A stretch of DNA of 34,820 nt, taken from Deltaproteobacteria bacterium. GTDB lineage: Bacteria; Desulfobacterota; Desulfobulbia; Desulfobulbales; SURF-16. Both the position numbers and the translations under genes were made by a program. The notes under the pieces are model-generated. The model did no database searches. It saw only the letters and a list, made by a program, of their open reading frames with translations, and was not told where the DNA came from. Location: assembly GCA_029933005.1 (NCBI GenBank), contig JAOZOY010000029.1, forward strand, positions 1 through 34,820, written 5' to 3'. Positions within the stretch are counted from its first letter, which is position 1. Every line of letters begins with the position of its first letter. Positions 12,429 to 28,234 of the stretch are shown here, in pieces.

Positions 12429-14204
12429 TTATTCAAAATAAACAGGATACATAAATATCGCATGCTCCTGCCCAGAGAAAAAATCACGCCAACCACGTTG
12501 AGAGACAACGCCGGCATAAAGTTGGGCCGGTTGAGACTCATCACCGGCAAAAAATTGATACCCACTGATATAGCCCATAATTTCCTGGGATTGCCAGATT
12601 GTGATCAAGTCCAAGCCATCCCAGCTCATGCCATATATGGTTCCCTGGGAAAAATCTTCCGGCTTCCCTATCTTTTGAGGGGACACAGCCGTATTCTGTT
12701 TGATAATAATATCCGGCAGCTGATCGCCATTCATATCGGCAATAAGGATCCGGGTCGGCAGCGACCACCTTTCGGCGCTCCCCTCATCCAGGCTCAGTTC
12801 GATTGAACCGCCATACGGACCATCACTTTCCCAAAGAACTTCGCCTACCATATTCATCACCTTGAGAATATGATCCCTGTCCATCAAAATGATTTCTTCG
12901 CTGCCGTCGCCGTCCAGATCCGCCATGGAAAAATTAAAAATATTCACGGATTCGGGAACAGGAAATTCTTCCCTATGCTGAATCACCTGACTGATCACCT
13001 CGAGGCGGAAAATCCCGGGAGCAAACCTTGTATCCTTTCCCGGCTCCTGCCCGGCAAGAATAAGGCCCTGACCATCCATATGCATGACATTGATATACCA
13101 ACTTTCATTTTTGAAAAGATAGGCGAATTGACTGCCATCCCATTCAAGACCAAAAGCGACTGGTCCTTCACTGGTAACGGCTGAAACATAGATTTCACTT
13201 TTACCGTTACAATTCAGGTCAGCCAGTCCCAAAGTCAAAATTCTGCTTGAGGGAGGGGCCATGATTTCCTCAATCCCACTTAAGCGCATGCCATCCAGAC
13301 GGAAAATCCCCAATTTGTCCTCACCGGCAAGAACTGCATCCAGCTGGCCGTCACCATCAAGATCACCTAGCTCCATGCTCTCCATAATCACTTCGATATC
13401 CACAATTTTTCGTGAAGCGAAAGTTCCCACGCTGAGCCCCCCGGATGTCCGGAGAGAAGACGTCAGGCTGGATCCGGTTGTCTGATCCGGAGGCAGACTC
13501 TTTTTCGAATAGGCCGGCAGAAGGGGAGGCAACGGACACATATCTCCCGGCAGAACAGGCTTCAAGGCCCTGTCCGGATGGGCGGACTTAAATGAAGTAA
13601 GGGAAGATTCATCAGCCGGCTGAATTTGCGGCTCAAGGCCCCTGTCCGAAGGAGGAGTCGACTGAAATGAAGAAGATGATGGTTCCGCGACAGGACTCTT
13701 TTCCCTGGGAGCAGGCCGTTTACTGCCAAATATTTTCTCAGCAATCTGCCAGGCCAGAATGTCCGCGGCGAAAACAAACTGGTCTTCCGGGCATTCCATT
13801 GTAAAGGTCTCCAGAGGGGCGCTGCCGCCCTTTGCATAGACATCCGCCTCAGCCATAAAAACATTCTGCTGTTGATCAAGGCGGCCGGTGAGCAGATAAT
13901 CTACCTGTGTGTCCTTCATGAGTTGCTGTAAACGTGCAATTGACCGATCTCCATCCGTTAAATCATAAGCTGTCCGGGAAATATCGACAATTTTAACCTT
14001 GGCCCTGGTGGCGATACGGCTGATCAACATACTTTTCAGTCCATGACGCTGGGCGATGATATTGGTTTCGCTGGAACCACCAAAGGCCACCACGCCAAGA
14101 CTTATAGGATTTTTCTCCAGACTGTATGCCGGAAAGGCAAAAAGGCAACTTATCAGTATGCATGAAAAAATTCGGAGAAATGGATAAAAGACTTGATCAA
14201 ACAT
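12429..14204 (-). CDS. exported FG-GAP/VCBS-repeat protein of the flagellar cluster
   Basis: The 591-residue protein has a signal peptide (FLRIFSCILISCLFAFPAYS). A roughly 130-residue N-terminal domain (ISLGVVAFGG, LLTGRLDQQQNVFMAEADVY) is loosely like the CsgG/TolB/FlgO type of envelope proteins. A Pro/Ser-rich linker follows (about 165-250), then a propeller-like half with four calcium-loop repeats: DLDGDGQLDAVL, DLNCNGKSEIYV, DLDGDGSEEIIL and DMNGDQLPDIII. The role is unknown; it probably acts in the periplasm or at the outer membrane. It heads the - strand flagellar run, 26 bases before the FlhB-like gene. The ATG at 14204 is preferred over a TTG at 14231 because it starts the signal peptide cleanly. 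A weak sigma-54-like site at 14298-14312 was not accepted. Confidence 0.75.
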   Translation of the reverse strand: MFDQVFYPFLRIFSCILISCLFAFPAYSLEKNPISLGVVAFGGSSETNIIAQRHGLKSMLISRIATRAKVKIVDISRTAYDLTDGDRSIARLQQLMKDTQVDYLLTGRLDQQQNVFMAEADVYAKGGSAPLETFTMECPEDQFVFAADILAWQIAEKIFGSKRPAPREKSPVAEPSSSSFQSTPPSDRGLEPQIQPADESSLTSFKSAHPDRALKPVLPGDMCPLPPLLPAYSKKSLPPDQTTGSSLTSSLRTSGGLSVGTFASRKIVDIEVIMESMELGDLDGDGQLDAVLAGEDKLGIFRLDGMRLSGIEEIMAPPSSRILTLGLADLNCNGKSEIYVSAVTSEGPVAFGLEWDGSQFAYLFKNESWYINVMHMDGQGLILAGQEPGKDTRFAPGIFRLEVISQVIQHREEFPVPESVNIFNFSMADLDGDGSEEIILMDRDHILKVMNMVGEVLWESDGPYGGSIELSLDEGSAERWSLPTRILIADMNGDQLPDIIIKQNTAVSPQKIGKPEDFSQGTIYGMSWDGLDLITIWQSQEIMGYISGYQFFAGDESQPAQLYAGVVSQRGWRDFFSGQEHAIFMYPVYFE

Positions 14205-14439
14205 ATGAATACCTGTTGCAACCGGGTTCAATAAATCAGTATAACCTAACCACCTGAAGTGAAGGCTCTAAATTAAGAAGTTCGGAGATGCGGAAGGGCT
14301 GTCCATTTGCCACTTACCAGCAACATACAGAAAAGGCAAAATATTTACAAAACCACAAAGATAATCTCTTCAATTGAGTAAGTTAAAACCTATTAATCTT
14401 ACCGGTATTCAAGAGTTAGTCCAATACTTTTTTCATCGA

Positions 14440-18124: not shown

Positions 18125-18847
18125 TCAAAGACTAAAATCACGACCAAGATACATTTTCCTGGCCATATCATTGTTAATGATCTCGCTTGCCTCTCCACTT
18201 ATTAAAATCCGGCCGTTGTTGACAATATAGGCAAAATCGCAAACCGCCAGTGTCTCCCGGACATTATGGTCCGAAATAAGAACTCCTAACCCTTTGTTTT
18301 TCAATTCCTTGATAATAACTTGCAAATCCGCAACCGCAAGTGGATCAATTCCGGCAAACGGTTCATCAAGCAAAATAAAACGCGGATTGGTCGCCATGGC
18401 ACGCATGATCTCCACCCTTCTTCGTTCTCCACCGGAAAGGGCATGACCTCGATTTTTGGCCAGATACTCAATCTTGAGTTCAGCCATTAAATGCTCAATA
18501 CGCTCCTGGATTACCTTCCTGGACAATCCCAGTGGTTCCAGAATAATCCTGACATTTTCCTCGACGGTGAGCTGTTTAAAGACCGATGGTTCCTGGGCCA
18601 GGTAGGAAATACCCTTCAGAGCTCTTTTATGAATGGGTAGCCCGGTAATATCTTCGCCATCAAGCAAAACCCTGCCGGAATCAGGACGGATGAAACCGGC
18701 AATGACATAAAAGGAAGTGGTCTTGCCGGCCCCATTAGGTCCGAGCATACCGATAATCGATCCGGATTCGACCTTCAGGTTGATACCGTCAACAACCCGC
18801 CGCTTATTATACTGTTTAACAATATTTTCCGTTTCTAAAACAGACAT
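18125..18847 (-). CDS. lptB: LptB, ATPase of the lipopolysaccharide exporter
   Basis: This 240-residue ABC ATPase has Walker A GPNGAGKTT (36-44), the signature LSGGE (137-141), Walker B ILLDEP (158-163), and the LptB-specific stretch AGIDPLAVADLQVIIKELKN followed by GVLISDHNVRET. LptB powers LPS extraction by LptFG and movement along the LptC-LptA bridge. AAGG lies 6 bases before the ATG. lptA is 55 bases upstream in the same direction, so they are probably cotranscribed. The gene order lptA-lptB-rpoN-ptsN-rapZ is widely conserved. Confidence 0.96.
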   Translation of the reverse strand: MSVLETENIVKQYNKRRVVDGINLKVESGSIIGMLGPNGAGKTTSFYVIAGFIRPDSGRVLLDGEDITGLPIHKRALKGISYLAQEPSVFKQLTVEENVRIILEPLGLSRKVIQERIEHLMAELKIEYLAKNRGHALSGGERRRVEIMRAMATNPRFILLDEPFAGIDPLAVADLQVIIKELKNKGLGVLISDHNVRETLAVCDFAYIVNNGRILISGEASEIINNDMARKMYLGRDFSL

Positions 18848-18902
18848 GCAAGGCCTTTATCATCGCATAAAACAGGTGAAAAATCAAAACTGTTTATTCC
18901 TT

Positions 18903-19436
18903 TCAATTTGGATAGAAATAAGCCTTAACCCTTTCTCCACTTTTCTTGTCCGGTTCTATAACGGTTGTATTTGCTTTTAAATCCAGCAGGACGCTTGCAC
19001 CGGTAATAATGTTGTTCCCCTGCCAGACTTTGGCATTTCCGCTGAGTAACACTTTTTTTTCCTCGGTAAAAAATTCGACCTGATTCCCTGTGGCCACCCA
19101 GTCTCCTTTGGTCAACTTGACATTTCCGGTGGCAAATATTTTCTTAAATTTTCCCGGACCCGACTCTTGCCGATTCGTCTTTTGGCTGTCCTGTTCATGG
19201 TACACCGTCATCTTGTCGGCATACAAAACAATATCCCCTTGAACGGCCTTCACATGGCCTATAAAAATTATAGCATTTTCTTTCTGGTGTGACAGCATTT
19301 TGTCGGCTTCAATGTTAATTGGCGCGTTCTCCCCGCCATCGGCAGCGTGAACAAAATCAACATGAAACAGGATAGTAAGCAAAAATGAGAAAAGAAAAAT
19401 AACAGCCGGTAAACGAGAAATAAATTGATTTTTCAT
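18903..19436 (-). CDS. lptA: LptA-like periplasmic LPS transport protein (OstA domain)
   Basis: From ATG 19436 the protein is 177 residues: a signal peptide (LPAVIFLFSFLLTILFHVDF, cleaved near VHA-AD), then an OstA/LptA beta-jellyroll: PINIEADKMLSHQKENAIIF, IGHVKAVQGDIVLYADKMTV, FATGNVKLTKGDWVATGNQV and VLLSGNAKVWQGNNIITG. LptA forms the filament that carries LPS across the periplasm. A TTG at 19523 in the same frame would add 29 residues before the signal peptide and is unlikely. The usual upstream neighbour lptC is not here. The divergent gene argB follows after about 350 bases. Confidence 0.88.
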   Translation of the reverse strand: MKNQFISRLPAVIFLFSFLLTILFHVDFVHAADGGENAPINIEADKMLSHQKENAIIFIGHVKAVQGDIVLYADKMTVYHEQDSQKTNRQESGPGKFKKIFATGNVKLTKGDWVATGNQVEFFTEEKKVLLSGNAKVWQGNNIITGASVLLDLKANTTVIEPDKKSGERVKAYFYPN

Positions 19437-19782
19437 AGAGGATTTCAACCTGTTTAAATATCTGTTGTCCCTGGCAGGGAGACATAAAGAGATTATTGCC
19501 AGAATCTTTAACAAATTTTCCAATTATCGACGCGAAAGCAAGCACCCTGCAAAACAGGGCATTATCCAACTCCGGTACGCATTATACACTTAATAACATT
19601 TTACAAAACATACCGACAGTGCAAAATAAAGTAAAGAGAAGCGAAAAGATATCTTTTTTAAGGAGGCTTTTTCTCTCCCATTTCTTTACAACTCCGGGGA
19701 GTACAAGTAATATAAGCATCTTTTCCGGCGACGGATGGTCATCGTTCGGTTTTCAAACAATTTCAATACACTTACAATACTC
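19437..19782. other. divergent lptA-argB intergenic region
   Basis: The 346 bases between the chosen lptA and argB starts hold no recognisable gene, ArgR box or consensus promoter. A 96-residue + frame from 19496 has no family features and runs into argB; it is not supported as a gene. The region is AT-rich toward argB. Confidence 0.4.
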
Positions 19783-23679: not shown

Positions 23680-25095
23680 ATGCCAGAAAAAAAAGACCAA
23701 AATCAAACCCCTCCGGCAAAACTCTGGGGTGGCCGTTTTGCCGAAAAAACAGCGGCCTCGGTGGAGGCCTTCACCGCCTCGATTCATTACGACTCCCGGC
23801 TTTACCGTCATGATATTGCCGGCAGCCGCGCCCATGCCCGGATGCTGGCCAGACAGGAGTTAATCTCCCATAATGAACTGGGCCTGATCTTAGGTGGACT
23901 TGACGAGATTGAACAGGAGATCGACCAGGGGGTCTTTGTTTTCCGGCCGGAACTGGAAGATATTCACATGAATATCGAAAAAACCCTGGTTGAAAAAATC
24001 GGTCCGGCCGGAGCCAAACTCCATACCGCCCGCAGCCGTAATGATCAGATCGCCCTGGATATCCGTCTTTACCTGCGGGAGGTGAGCGGTCAACTCGAAG
24101 GACTTCTCATCAATCTCCAGACCGCCTTTGTCAAACTGGCCCGAAAATATCTCGGCGCAGTCATGCCGGGCTATACTCATCTGCAACGTGCCCAGCCCCT
24201 GCTGATTTCCCATCATATGCTGGCCTATTTCGAGATGTTCGGCCGGGACAGGCAAAGGCTGGTCGACGGCCTGAAAAGAATTAATGTTCTCCCCCTTGGC
24301 GCCGCTGCCCTGGCCGGAACCGGCCTGCCGATTGACCGAGAATTTGTCGCCCGTGAACTCGATTTCCTATCCGTGTCCGCCAACAGCATGGATAGTGTGG
24401 CAGACCGGGATTTTGCCGTGGAGTTTGTTTCCACCTGCACCCTGATCCAGATTCATCTCAGCCGGTTTTCCGAAGAACTTGTCCTCTGGGCCAGTGAGGA
24501 GTTTTCCTTTGTCAATCTTGCCGACAGCTTCTGTACCGGCAGCAGTATCATGCCCCAGAAAAAGAATCCGGATATCCCAGAACTGATCCGCGGCAAAAGC
24601 GCTCGGGTGACGGGCAACCTCATGGCCCTGATCACCCTGCTTAAGGGTCTGCCCATGACCTATAACCGTGATCTGCAGGAAGATAAGGAGCCGATTTTCG
24701 ATACCGTAGATACGGTTACCCAAAGCCTGGCGATCATGGCGGAACTCCTCGACAACACTGAATTTAACACCGGACGTCTTGAAGAAGCGACTATTGGCGG
24801 CTACATGACCGCCACCGACCTGGCCGATTATCTTGTCCGAAAAAATATCCCTTTTCGCAAGGCTCATGAAATCGTCGGCCGCACTGTTGCTTATTGCATT
24901 CAAAAAGAAAAAGAGCTGGCCGAACTGGAGCTGGCCGAACTGCGCCAATTTTCAGATCAAATTGAAGAAGATGTCTTTCCTGTTCTTTCCGTCCAGGGTT
25001 CGGTTAACAGCCGGACATCGGCGGGAGGAACCTCTGCCATCCGGGTCGCCGAGGCCTTGGCCGTGGCGGAAAACAGTCTGGATTTCACGCCATGA
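23680..25095 (+). CDS. argH: argininosuccinate lyase
   Basis: This 471-residue member of the fumarase/aspartase superfamily releases arginine and fumarate. It starts with KLWGGRFAEKTAASVEAFTA. It has HTARSRNDQIALDIRLYLRE (about 111), MPGYTHLQRAQPLLISHHML (catalytic His of TxxQxAQP type), and the signature loop GSSIMPQKKNPDIPELIRGK. The C-terminal VNSRTSAGGTSAIRV is normal. Its TGA overlaps the ATG of the following lipoprotein gene (ATGA), showing translational coupling into the downstream lysA unit. Confidence 0.97.
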   Translation: MPEKKDQNQTPPAKLWGGRFAEKTAASVEAFTASIHYDSRLYRHDIAGSRAHARMLARQELISHNELGLILGGLDEIEQEIDQGVFVFRPELEDIHMNIEKTLVEKIGPAGAKLHTARSRNDQIALDIRLYLREVSGQLEGLLINLQTAFVKLARKYLGAVMPGYTHLQRAQPLLISHHMLAYFEMFGRDRQRLVDGLKRINVLPLGAAALAGTGLPIDREFVARELDFLSVSANSMDSVADRDFAVEFVSTCTLIQIHLSRFSEELVLWASEEFSFVNLADSFCTGSSIMPQKKNPDIPELIRGKSARVTGNLMALITLLKGLPMTYNRDLQEDKEPIFDTVDTVTQSLAIMAELLDNTEFNTGRLEEATIGGYMTATDLADYLVRKNIPFRKAHEIVGRTVAYCIQKEKELAELELAELRQFSDQIEEDVFPVLSVQGSVNSRTSAGGTSAIRVAEALAVAENSLDFTP

Positions 25096-26126
25096 AAGCT
25101 AATTCGATCCATCTTTTTTTCTGCTGCCTGATCATTCTTCTTGTTGGCGGCTGCGGCATAAAAACCATGCCCATCCCACCCCAGGCCGTCATTCCGGAGG
25201 CTATTTCAGATCTCAAGTGCAAACTGGATGAAAAAAGCGCCAACCTGAGCTGGTCATACCCGGGCAGATCCATCCAAGGGGAATCAATCGACAACATCAG
25301 AAATTTTAAAATTTTCAAGGCTGAAGTCGCCGAGAAAGACTATTGTCCTAATTGTCCGATAATCTATAACTTTCATTTTGAGATCAATGCTTCTCGCCTT
25401 AAGCCGCGGAAAAAAATCCATTTTTCCGACACCGACCTGAAAACCGGTTATCATTATACTTATATGGTGCAATCCCATTCGGGCTGGAATATTAAAAGCC
25501 GGGATTCAAACCGGGTGGCCTTTGTCTGGCAGACTCCGCTGGCCGCGCCGCTGAGCCTGGAGGCCGAGGCCGGGGATCAGCTGGTAACGTTAAACTGGAA
25601 TGCGGCCCATTCCCCGGCACAGGAGGTGTCGTACCAGATTTTACGAAGCAAAGACGGGAGAAAGTTTAAATCCATCGGGCCACCGGTGGCAGAGACCTTT
25701 TTTGTGGACGGCAGTGCTATCAACGGCAAGACCTATGCCTACAAAATCCGAGCGATCCGTCACGCGGATGATACGGCATATCCAGGTCTGCTCAGTGAAC
25801 CTGTTTCGGCAACACCAAAGGACAGGACGCCGCCCGCTCCTCCCTTCCAGATTCATTGTATATCCACTGCCGAGGGAGTCAGGATCGTCTGGAGTGGTGG
25901 CAGTGAAAAAGATCTTGGCGGCTACCGAATTTACAGACGGTCTGCCGGTAAAAAAACAGCAATGATGATTGGCAAAACCAGTTCGACAGGTCACTTTTTC
26001 ATGGACAAAAATCTTCCCGTAAATGTTGCTGTCTGGTATTACTCGATAACGGCCGTTGACCAGGCCGTGCCAGCCAATGAAAGTGCATTTTCTCCTGAAA
26101 TAAAATTTGACAGGCGTATAAATTAA
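25092..26126 (+). CDS. lipoprotein with LptM-like N-terminus and fibronectin type III-like repeats
   Basis: The 344-residue protein has a lipoprotein signal peptide (HLFFCCLIILLVGGC), with the lipid-bearing Cys at about residue 21 followed by GIKTMPIPPQAV. This resembles the CGxKGPLxxP start of LptM/YifL lipoproteins, which in many genomes lie just upstream of lysA or dapF as this gene does. Unlike the short LptM, it continues into about three beta-sandwich segments of FnIII type: ISDLKCKLDEKSANLSWSYP, LEAEAGDQLVTLNWNAAHSP, and FQIHCISTAEGVRIVWSGGS EKDLGGYRIYRR. It overlaps argH by 4 bases and is one base from lysA. The LptM link is inference, and the function is not established. Confidence 0.75.
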   Translation: MKANSIHLFFCCLIILLVGGCGIKTMPIPPQAVIPEAISDLKCKLDEKSANLSWSYPGRSIQGESIDNIRNFKIFKAEVAEKDYCPNCPIIYNFHFEINASRLKPRKKIHFSDTDLKTGYHYTYMVQSHSGWNIKSRDSNRVAFVWQTPLAAPLSLEAEAGDQLVTLNWNAAHSPAQEVSYQILRSKDGRKFKSIGPPVAETFFVDGSAINGKTYAYKIRAIRHADDTAYPGLLSEPVSATPKDRTPPAPPFQIHCISTAEGVRIVWSGGSEKDLGGYRIYRRSAGKKTAMMIGKTSSTGHFFMDKNLPVNVAVWYYSITAVDQAVPANESAFSPEIKFDRRIN

Positions 26127-26127
26127 G

Positions 26128-27381
26128 ATGAATGATTTTAATTATATAGGCAACAAACTGCATTGTGAATCAGTGCCGGTGGACAGTATTGCAGCTAAAG
26201 TGCGAACCCCTTTTTATCTTTACAGCACGGAAACCCTGACCCGGCATTTCAAAGCCTTTGATTCGGCTTTCAGCCTGCCGCATATCACCTGTTTTGCCGT
26301 TAAATCATGTTCGAATATTGCCATTCTTCGTCTGTTCGCGAGATTAGGCGGCGGCGCGGATATTGTTTCCGGCGGAGAACTCTTCCGGGTCCTGAAAGCA
26401 GGCATGGACCCAAAAAAAATTGTCTACTCCGGAGTCGGCAAAACCGAAGATGAACTACGCTTCGCCCTGGGCGCAAAAATCCTGCTCTTTAACGTCGAAT
26501 CCATCCAGGAACTGGAAACTCTGCAAGGGGTAGCAGCGGAGATGGGGATCAAAGCGCCGGTTTCCTTCCGGGTGAATCCGGATGTCGATCCAAAAACCCA
26601 TGCCTACATCTCCACCGGACTGGCCAAAAACAAGTTCGGCATCCCTATTGAACAGGCCCTGGAAGTTTATCAACAGGCCGAAGAAATGGCCAATATTGAT
26701 ACTCTTGGCGTCAGTTGCCATATCGGCTCCCAGCTCACCGATCTTTCACCCTTTGTTGAATCACTAAACAAAATCAAAGGATTCATCCGAAAATTAGAGG
26801 GGGATGGAATTGCCATCTCCTATCTTGATCTGGGCGGAGGTCTGGGTATTCGCTACGATGACGAGGAACCGCCCCATCCGTCTGCCTATGCCGATGCCAT
26901 CATGAAAGAAATGGGAGAATTTGACTGCACCTTGATCCTGGAGCCGGGACGGGTTATAGTTGGCAACGCCGGAATCTTGGTGACCAAGGTTCTTTATACC
27001 AAGACAGGCGAAAAAAAATTTATCATCGTTGATGCCGGTATGAATGACCTGGCCCGGCCGAGCCTTTATGGTGCTTTTCATTCCATTCAACCGGTGGAGC
27101 GGCGTGATCAGGGAACCGAAATTGTCGATGTGGTGGGGCCAATCTGCGAAACCGGCGATTTCCTGTCCAAAGGCAGAGAATTGCCGATCTGTGAAAGAGG
27201 AAATCTGCTTGGTGTGATGAGTGCGGGAGCCTATGGCTTTACCATGTCCTCCAATTACAACTCCCGGCCCAGGGTCTGTGAAATTCTGGTGAATGATGAT
27301 TCGTTTCATGTGATCCGAAAACGGGAGACCTATGATCAGCTTATTGCAGGTGAATCGATTCCTGATTTTTTAAAAAAATAG
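26128..27381 (+). CDS. lysA: diaminopimelate decarboxylase
   Basis: This 417-residue PLP enzyme of the alanine-racemase fold makes lysine from meso-DAP. The PLP lysine is at residue 59 in ITCFAVKSCSN. GGGADIVSGGELFRVLKAGM, FRVNPDVDPKTHAYISTGLA KNKFGI, LDLGGGLGIRY, LILEPGRVIVGNAGILVTKV, and the substrate motif ICETGDFLSKGRELP follow in order, with the C-terminal Tyr block SAGAYGFTMSSNYNSRPR. It begins one base after the lipoprotein stop and is followed by dapF after 10 bases. Confidence 0.97.
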   Translation: MNDFNYIGNKLHCESVPVDSIAAKVRTPFYLYSTETLTRHFKAFDSAFSLPHITCFAVKSCSNIAILRLFARLGGGADIVSGGELFRVLKAGMDPKKIVYSGVGKTEDELRFALGAKILLFNVESIQELETLQGVAAEMGIKAPVSFRVNPDVDPKTHAYISTGLAKNKFGIPIEQALEVYQQAEEMANIDTLGVSCHIGSQLTDLSPFVESLNKIKGFIRKLEGDGIAISYLDLGGGLGIRYDDEEPPHPSAYADAIMKEMGEFDCTLILEPGRVIVGNAGILVTKVLYTKTGEKKFIIVDAGMNDLARPSLYGAFHSIQPVERRDQGTEIVDVVGPICETGDFLSKGRELPICERGNLLGVMSAGAYGFTMSSNYNSRPRVCEILVNDDSFHVIRKRETYDQLIAGESIPDFLKK

Positions 27382-27391
27382 CGCTGACGGG

Positions 27392-28234
27392 ATGTTATAT
27401 GTGAATTTTCCAATTCCATTTACCAAAATGAGCGGCACGGGCAATGATTTCATTATCATTGATCATCGCAAACCATTGCTTGATCAAGATGAATTCGGCT
27501 CGTTTGCCAAGGCTGTCTGCCGGCGGAAATTTTCCGTAGGTGCTGACGGCCTTATTCTTATTGAAGACAGTAACGAAGCGGATTTTCGCTGGCATTTTTA
27601 TAATGGTGACGGCAGTGTGGCCGAAATGTGCGGCAACGGCGCAAGATGCGCGGCCCGTTTTGCCTGTGAAAAAAAAATAGCCCCGGCCGCCATGCGCTTT
27701 CTGACCATTGCCGGCGAAATCCGGGCCGAGGTCAGGGGAGAATCGGTAAAGCTTGCCATGACTCCACCGGCAGATCTTGCCCTTAATCAGCAGATTGAGA
27801 TTGACGGCAAGCAGCAGACCATCCACAGCCTCAACACCGGCGTCCCCCATGCCGTTCTCTTTGTCGAGGACGGAAACAGAGCGCCGGTGCTGGAATGGGG
27901 CCGGCACATCCGCTTTCATGATCTTTTTCAACCGGCCGGAACCAATGTGAATTTTGTCCAACCGCTTGGTTCGAACTCCCTCCATGTCCGCACCTATGAA
28001 CGCGGCATAGAGGATGAGACCCTGGCCTGCGGCACAGGCGCCGTGGCTTCCGCCATTATTGCCGGACTCCTCGGCCAGGTTAAAAGTCCGGTCACGGTGA
28101 CAACATCCGGCGGAGAACAGCTGATCATTTATTTTTCGATTCAAAACAGCTCCCCGGCTGAAATTACTGATGTCTTTCTGGAAGGGCCGGCCCATTTTAT
28201 ATATGAAGGGCAATTGAACAGGGAAGCCCTTTAA
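27392..28234 (+). CDS. dapF: diaminopimelate epimerase
   Basis: This cofactor-free epimerase converts LL-DAP to meso-DAP. Both catalytic cysteines are present: MCGNGARCAARFAC (Cys80) and ETLACGTGAVASA (Cys213), numbered from the ATG used. KMSGTGNDFIIID is the usual N-terminal motif. A GTG at 27401 (starting NFPIPFTKMSG) is an alternative. ACGGGA lies 10 bases before that GTG but almost touches the ATG, so the first three residues are uncertain. The gene follows lysA by 10 bases. Confidence 0.96.
   Translation: MLYVNFPIPFTKMSGTGNDFIIIDHRKPLLDQDEFGSFAKAVCRRKFSVGADGLILIEDSNEADFRWHFYNGDGSVAEMCGNGARCAARFACEKKIAPAAMRFLTIAGEIRAEVRGESVKLAMTPPADLALNQQIEIDGKQQTIHSLNTGVPHAVLFVEDGNRAPVLEWGRHIRFHDLFQPAGTNVNFVQPLGSNSLHVRTYERGIEDETLACGTGAVASAIIAGLLGQVKSPVTVTTSGGEQLIIYFSIQNSSPAEITDVFLEGPAHFIYEGQLNREAL

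Follow-up and report, generated by a model that had tools for sequence, protein, structure and literature searches.

An LptM-like lipoprotein extended by FnIII domains at the argH-lysA locus of a Desulfobacterota bacterium

The lipoprotein gene and its neighbours

The window, by which we mean the whole stretch of 34,820 nucleotides that was analysed, carries on its forward strand an open reading frame (25092–26126) that starts with ATG and encodes a protein of 344 amino acids, with the N terminus MKANSIHLFFCCLIILLVGGCGIKTMPIPP in the ORF listing of the window. The product consists of a lipoprotein signal, followed by GGCGIKTMPIPP and then by about 310 more residues. From a reading of the sequence, the signal peptide comprises residues 1–20 (25092–25151, +) with the lipobox LVGG/C, and residues 3–18 form a helix in the structural model described below; GGCG occupies residues 19–22, and the mature protein has 324 amino acids. 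Mature residues 1–10 (25152–25181, +) make up the LptM-like motif CGIKTMPIPP, which is delimited by its conservation in orthologues.

The gene is tightly packed between its neighbours. Its ATG overlaps the stop codon of the upstream argH (23680–25095, +), and lysA (26128–27381, +) starts one base past its own stop, with dapF next (27392–28234, +; assigned as an ORF) and then dapA and dapB. In E. coli, lptM adjoins dapF. Approximately 6 kb upstream of the lipoprotein gene, 18125–19523 holds what we take to be an ABC ATPase gene resembling lptB and a gene for a periplasmic protein resembling LptA/OstA. Farther away, adjoining the flagellar cluster, 12429–14231 (−) encodes a 600-residue protein with repeated DLDGDG/DMNGD segments, which are presumably FG-GAP-like.

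An orthologue of the lipoprotein gene was found in 19 of the 22 family genomes, and in all 19 loci it is flanked by argH and lysA, as judged by tblastn. The lipobox cysteine is followed by glycine in every one of these orthologues, which all carry the pattern GCGxKTxxxPP. A profile built from the 19 orthologues matched 183 of 192 genomes of the class and 265 of 297 genomes of the phylum at E ≤ 1e-3, the weak matches including unrelated Fn3 proteins.

FnIII domains and their number

The first-pass annotation had read the part of the protein after the motif as an extension of about 300 residues of beta-sandwich repeats, and Pfam, AlphaFold2 and fold searches bear this out as FnIII, with three domains in the model. 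The Pfam fn3 model (PF00041) matches residues 37–131 at 26.8 bits, over its cut-off, and an AlphaFold2 model (mean pLDDT 89) computed from a 19-row alignment contains three beta-sandwiches at approximately residues 37–147, 150–244 and 248–341. Domain 1 (25200–25532, +) is thus placed by both Pfam and the model, and domains 2 (25539–25823, +) and 3 (25833–26114, +) by the model and its PDB matches. With Foldseek and VIA-align, the model matched PDB entries with arrays of FnIII domains as well as individual FnIII domains, which domain 2 fits at an rmsd of 1.6–1.9 over 86–92 residues. Sequence searches of the PDB with the window protein returned general FnIII proteins only, and a contig scan for named relatives gave one Fn3 match, from a Fibrobacterota MAG, which covers residues 108–334 only and not the motif. 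Matches to the SusE, RGI_lyase and exoglucanase models of Pfam and NCBIfam were read as FnIII cross-matches and set aside.

Domain 1 contains a CxxC (Cys-85 and Cys-88; 25344–25355, +), identified by conservation, that is invariant across the 19 family members. It is present, usually as CxxCP, in 67 of 77 Fn3-bearing members, and in 41 of these 67 the pair provides the only cysteines apart from the lipidated one. Such persistence would suit a redox-active or redox-sensing partner whose CxxC takes part in forming the disulfides of LptD, but the pair is absent from 10 of the 77 members, FnIII is not a thioredoxin fold and a plain structural disulfide explains the CxxC equally well. We consider the redox role highly improbable, and the CxxC is most simply a structural disulfide.

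The mature lengths of 79 members fall into steps of 22–34 (n = 2), 124–143 (n = 9), 229–242 (n = 6) and 303–348 (n = 62) amino acids, which fit 0, 1, 2 and 3 Fn3 domains at one locus, the domain count of each member being taken from mature length together with profile coverage. A tree built from lysA for 69 of the 83 loci (14 were dropped as having no usable lysA) calls for at least 10 changes in the number of domains. The tree is weakly resolved, with 27 of its 66 inner branches open, and because many of the deep branches are weak the order of gain and loss cannot be deduced from it.

Resemblance to LptM within the phylum

The first-pass annotation had also likened the N terminus of the protein to the start of LptM (YifL), a likeness that does not emerge from LptM profiles run on the window protein itself. 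Against PF13627 (LptM_cons) it scores 11.0 bits (E 0.41; Pfam cut-off 27.3) and against the NCBI LptM model NF047847 10.9 bits (cut-off 27.7), and direct membership was rejected because both values fall below the curated cut-offs. In a genome-wide scan with PF13627 the window protein came second at 15.2 bits, after another lipoprotein-like frame at 16.2 bits, and its own genome holds no PF13627 match at E ≤ 1e-3. Taken singly, the LptM score of the window protein (11–15 bits) is noise and not above chance. The motif does have Lys at mature position 4 and prolines up to position 10; the Gly-Pro of CGxKGP at mature positions 5 and 6 is absent, with TM there instead, so that the glycine of LptM at position 5 is replaced by threonine.

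The resemblance is significant because of the scores of the orthologues, not that of the window protein alone, and it is through them that the proposed LptM-like N terminus stands. Over 297 genomes of the phylum, PF13627 gave 14 matches at E ≤ 1e-3, and four genomes passed the Pfam cut-off. All 14 matches lie in the arg/lys-dap locus, each within less than 2 kb of argH or lysA, the farthest (in G342) being 1.7 kb from argH. Twelve are the N termini of Fn3 lipoproteins and two (G224 and G366) are short LptM-like peptides, whose mature forms are 22 and 34 residues long, respectively. The PF13627 model carries no Fn3 information and is therefore independent of the Fn3 domains. At more permissive thresholds, the orthologue is the top PF13627 match in 13 of the 19 family genomes (E ≤ 10), and the Pfam model matches 41 of the 79 members at E ≤ 1; the NCBI model matches 41 of the 79 at E ≤ 0.01 and 6 at E ≤ 2e-6, which is about NCBI's own threshold.

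A second model was built from E. coli LptM together with six short peptides of the phylum, none of the seven having an Fn3 domain. Ranked against 27–126 first-look candidates per genome, the Fn3 gene was its best match in all 19 family genomes that carry the gene (E 1e-9 to 8e-3), including the genome of the window, where the window gene was the top match at E 0.002. This test is partly circular, since the six phylum peptides were chosen by their CGxK motif at this locus, and the PF13627 test is not. As to a separate true LptM elsewhere in the same genome, which the annotation had entertained, no clearly better candidate was found, although one lipoprotein scores slightly higher by PF13627.

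Short LptM-like peptides occupy the same locus in several genomes (loci L172, L173, L194–L197, L191 and L192). The last six of these belong to genomes without a match to the 19-orthologue profile, and there the short peptide sits just before lysA. Three further loci are kept outside the short-form counts, namely L190, where a CGKKAPPKPP peptide is not beside lysA, and L185 and L193, with about 126 residues after the cysteine. In seven genomes without a profile match (L181–L184 and L187–L189), the 1.5 kb inspected next to lysA contained no LptM-like gene. With the lysA/dapF neighbourhood found in the window, in all 19 family loci and for E. coli lptM, and with short peptides in the same place, the earlier argument that the gene sits at an lptM locus is upheld.

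The noise-level scores of the window protein are what would be expected of an ordinary outer-membrane Fn3 lipoprotein, an adhesin or scaffold in which CGxKxPPxPP is no more than a linker, rich in Lys and Pro, behind the lipid and resembles LptM by convergence. Proteins of this architecture are on record; FlpA of Campylobacter jejuni (Cj1279c) is described as an outer-membrane lipoprotein of 411 amino acids with three FnIII-like domains and is reported to be a fibronectin-binding adhesin (PMC7161372). Its likeness to the window protein is one of described architecture, and it differs in lying in the operon Cj1280c-flpA-Cj1278c and in being described as a fibronectin adhesin (PMC7161372). Against an ordinary lipoprotein stand the phylum-wide PF13627 matches, every one of which falls at a single locus, and the Fn3-less short peptides that fill the same slot. 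A third argument comes from 60 distant loci, picked for diversity from the matches to the orthologue profile and to PF13627, of which 56 have argH upstream or lysA downstream at a distance of ≤400 nt. Here the mature protein keeps C1 in 60/60, G2 in 59/60, K4 in 58/60 (R in the other 2) and P7 in 55/60, whereas G5 and P6 occur in 21/60 and 33/60; K4 is thus retained despite a tail that varies from 0 to 3 domains. On this evidence we think it unlikely that the gene encodes an ordinary Fn3 lipoprotein. The window gene is, as far as sequence comparison can indicate, very probably homologous to lptM at its N terminus, and on the same footing the proposed homology extends beyond the window gene to the phylum.

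LptD and a possible role at the translocon

LptM was described in 2023 (PMC10567701). The features that the window protein and its orthologues share with it (YifL; PF13627/NF047847) are the lipobox Cys-Gly, CGxK with prolines, the dapF/lysA locus and the passing of the Pfam cut-off by orthologues. The differences are those of length and distribution. Reported LptM proteins have fewer than 70 amino acids beyond the motif (PMC10567701), whereas the window protein has about 300, in three FnIII domains. As described by Yang et al. 2023, lptM-like genes are virtually absent outside the Gamma- and Alphaproteobacteria, where their frequencies are ∼79% and 57%, respectively (PMC10567701), whereas the gene described here is phylum-wide, with the Pfam cut-off passed in 4 of 297 genomes. 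We take the phylum to be Desulfobacterota on the basis of gene content, and the small number of genomes over that cut-off is our reason for not placing it in Pseudomonadota. In the open-access literature of PMC we found no account that links an Fn3 lipoprotein with LptM or LptD, or of an Fn3-bearing LptM.

The prospective partners are encoded in most of the family, with LptD (PF04453) in 21 and LptE (PF04390) in 17 of the 22 genomes and both in the genome of the window, LptD at G000:C5:11502–12620 and LptE at G000:C8:60282–60683. When 41 LptD loci were aligned to E. coli LptD, which is itself excluded from the counts, the E275 column held Glu in 39 and Asp in 1; cysteine was found at 173 in 39 and at 725 in 40, and at 31 or 724 in none, the missing alignment cells being truncated loci (L104, L120 and L235). 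Since the LptD of the phylum keeps C173 and C725 and is without C31 and C724, it is expected from these residues that it should form one inter-domain disulfide.

Two further observations on LptD were considered and do not decide the matter. The Glu at E275 is also kept in four genomes (G209, G231, G262 and G298) where no LptM-like gene was seen beside lysA, so its conservation is permissive evidence only and does not discriminate. Co-occurrence of the gene with LptD is not clean either. There are 41 LptD-negative genomes, and among the 20 of them listed, five (G196, G205, G272, G277 and G314) match the lipoprotein-gene profile strongly. Also among the 20 are four near-complete genomes of one genus (G268, G300, G328 and G354), which have no LptD match, no lipoprotein gene and a diverged lysA.

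The absence of C31 and C724 is relevant to the possibility that the gene is a true descendant of lptM in which the motif now serves only for sorting to, and anchoring in, the outer membrane, with the Fn3 array in a new role such as surface display or envelope spacing. The disulfide shuffling that LptM assists in E. coli may not arise in such an LptD, and the frequent gain or loss of Fn3 domains on the weakly resolved lysA tree would also suit a descendant of this kind. However, the conservation of K4 and P7 goes beyond what sorting seems to need, and LptD keeps its Glu at the E275 column. We regard a sorting-only motif as quite unlikely.

We return to the reading that we favour, and hold with somewhat better than even confidence, in which the gene is a diverged, domain-extended lptM orthologue at the lptM locus whose tip acts at LptD and whose Fn3 rod acts at the beta-taco. 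By analogy with E. coli, a role of the lipoprotein at LptD is likely, and docking of the tip to LptD by the mechanism set out here seems marginally the more probable outcome. In E. coli, LptM residues 20–29 (mature 1–10) are described as resolved at the lateral gate of LptD, and deletion of residues 44–67 spares binding, whereas deletion of 22–30 strongly impairs it (PMC12644819). K23 of LptM has been modelled as pairing with E275 of LptD (PMC10567701), and LptM is reported to promote gate opening and LptY to stabilise the beta-taco (PMC12644819). Extrapolating from these structures, the lipidated cysteine and mature residues 1–10 would insert at the lateral gate and barrel lumen of LptD, the conserved Lys would pair with the conserved Glu equivalent to E275, and docking of the tip would loosen the gate and aid LptD assembly. 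At a further remove, FnIII domain 1 would have to lie where the barrel opens into the periplasm, beside the beta-taco, because only about 15 residues separate the domain from the lipid, in our view too short a distance for a folded domain to be placed elsewhere. The rod might then brace the beta-taco, which is the job of LptY in E. coli, or reach toward the LptA bridge.

LptY (YedD) offers an analogy only; it too is a lipoprotein, and next to the beta-taco of LptD it has a folded domain in the periplasm and a Cys pair (PMC12644819). Unlike the window protein, it has a lipocalin-like fold and is the product of a separate gene. To our knowledge LptY contains no LptM motif. More speculatively, the LptM of this phylum could consist of a gate-docking tip and a modular rod of 0–3 Fn3 domains, combining LptM and an LptY-like brace of the beta-taco in one polypeptide, and the same translocon subunit could also be represented by related lipoproteins with three Fn3 domains that are known as adhesins, e.g. 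FlpA of C. jejuni; this wider proposal we put forward only tentatively.

A domain-extended LptM present throughout the phylum would push the origin of LptM far back and would suggest that LPS export generally involves a lipidated peptide that opens the gate. The occurrence of forms with 0, 1, 2 and 3 Fn3 domains provides a natural series for studying the function of the region that follows the motif.
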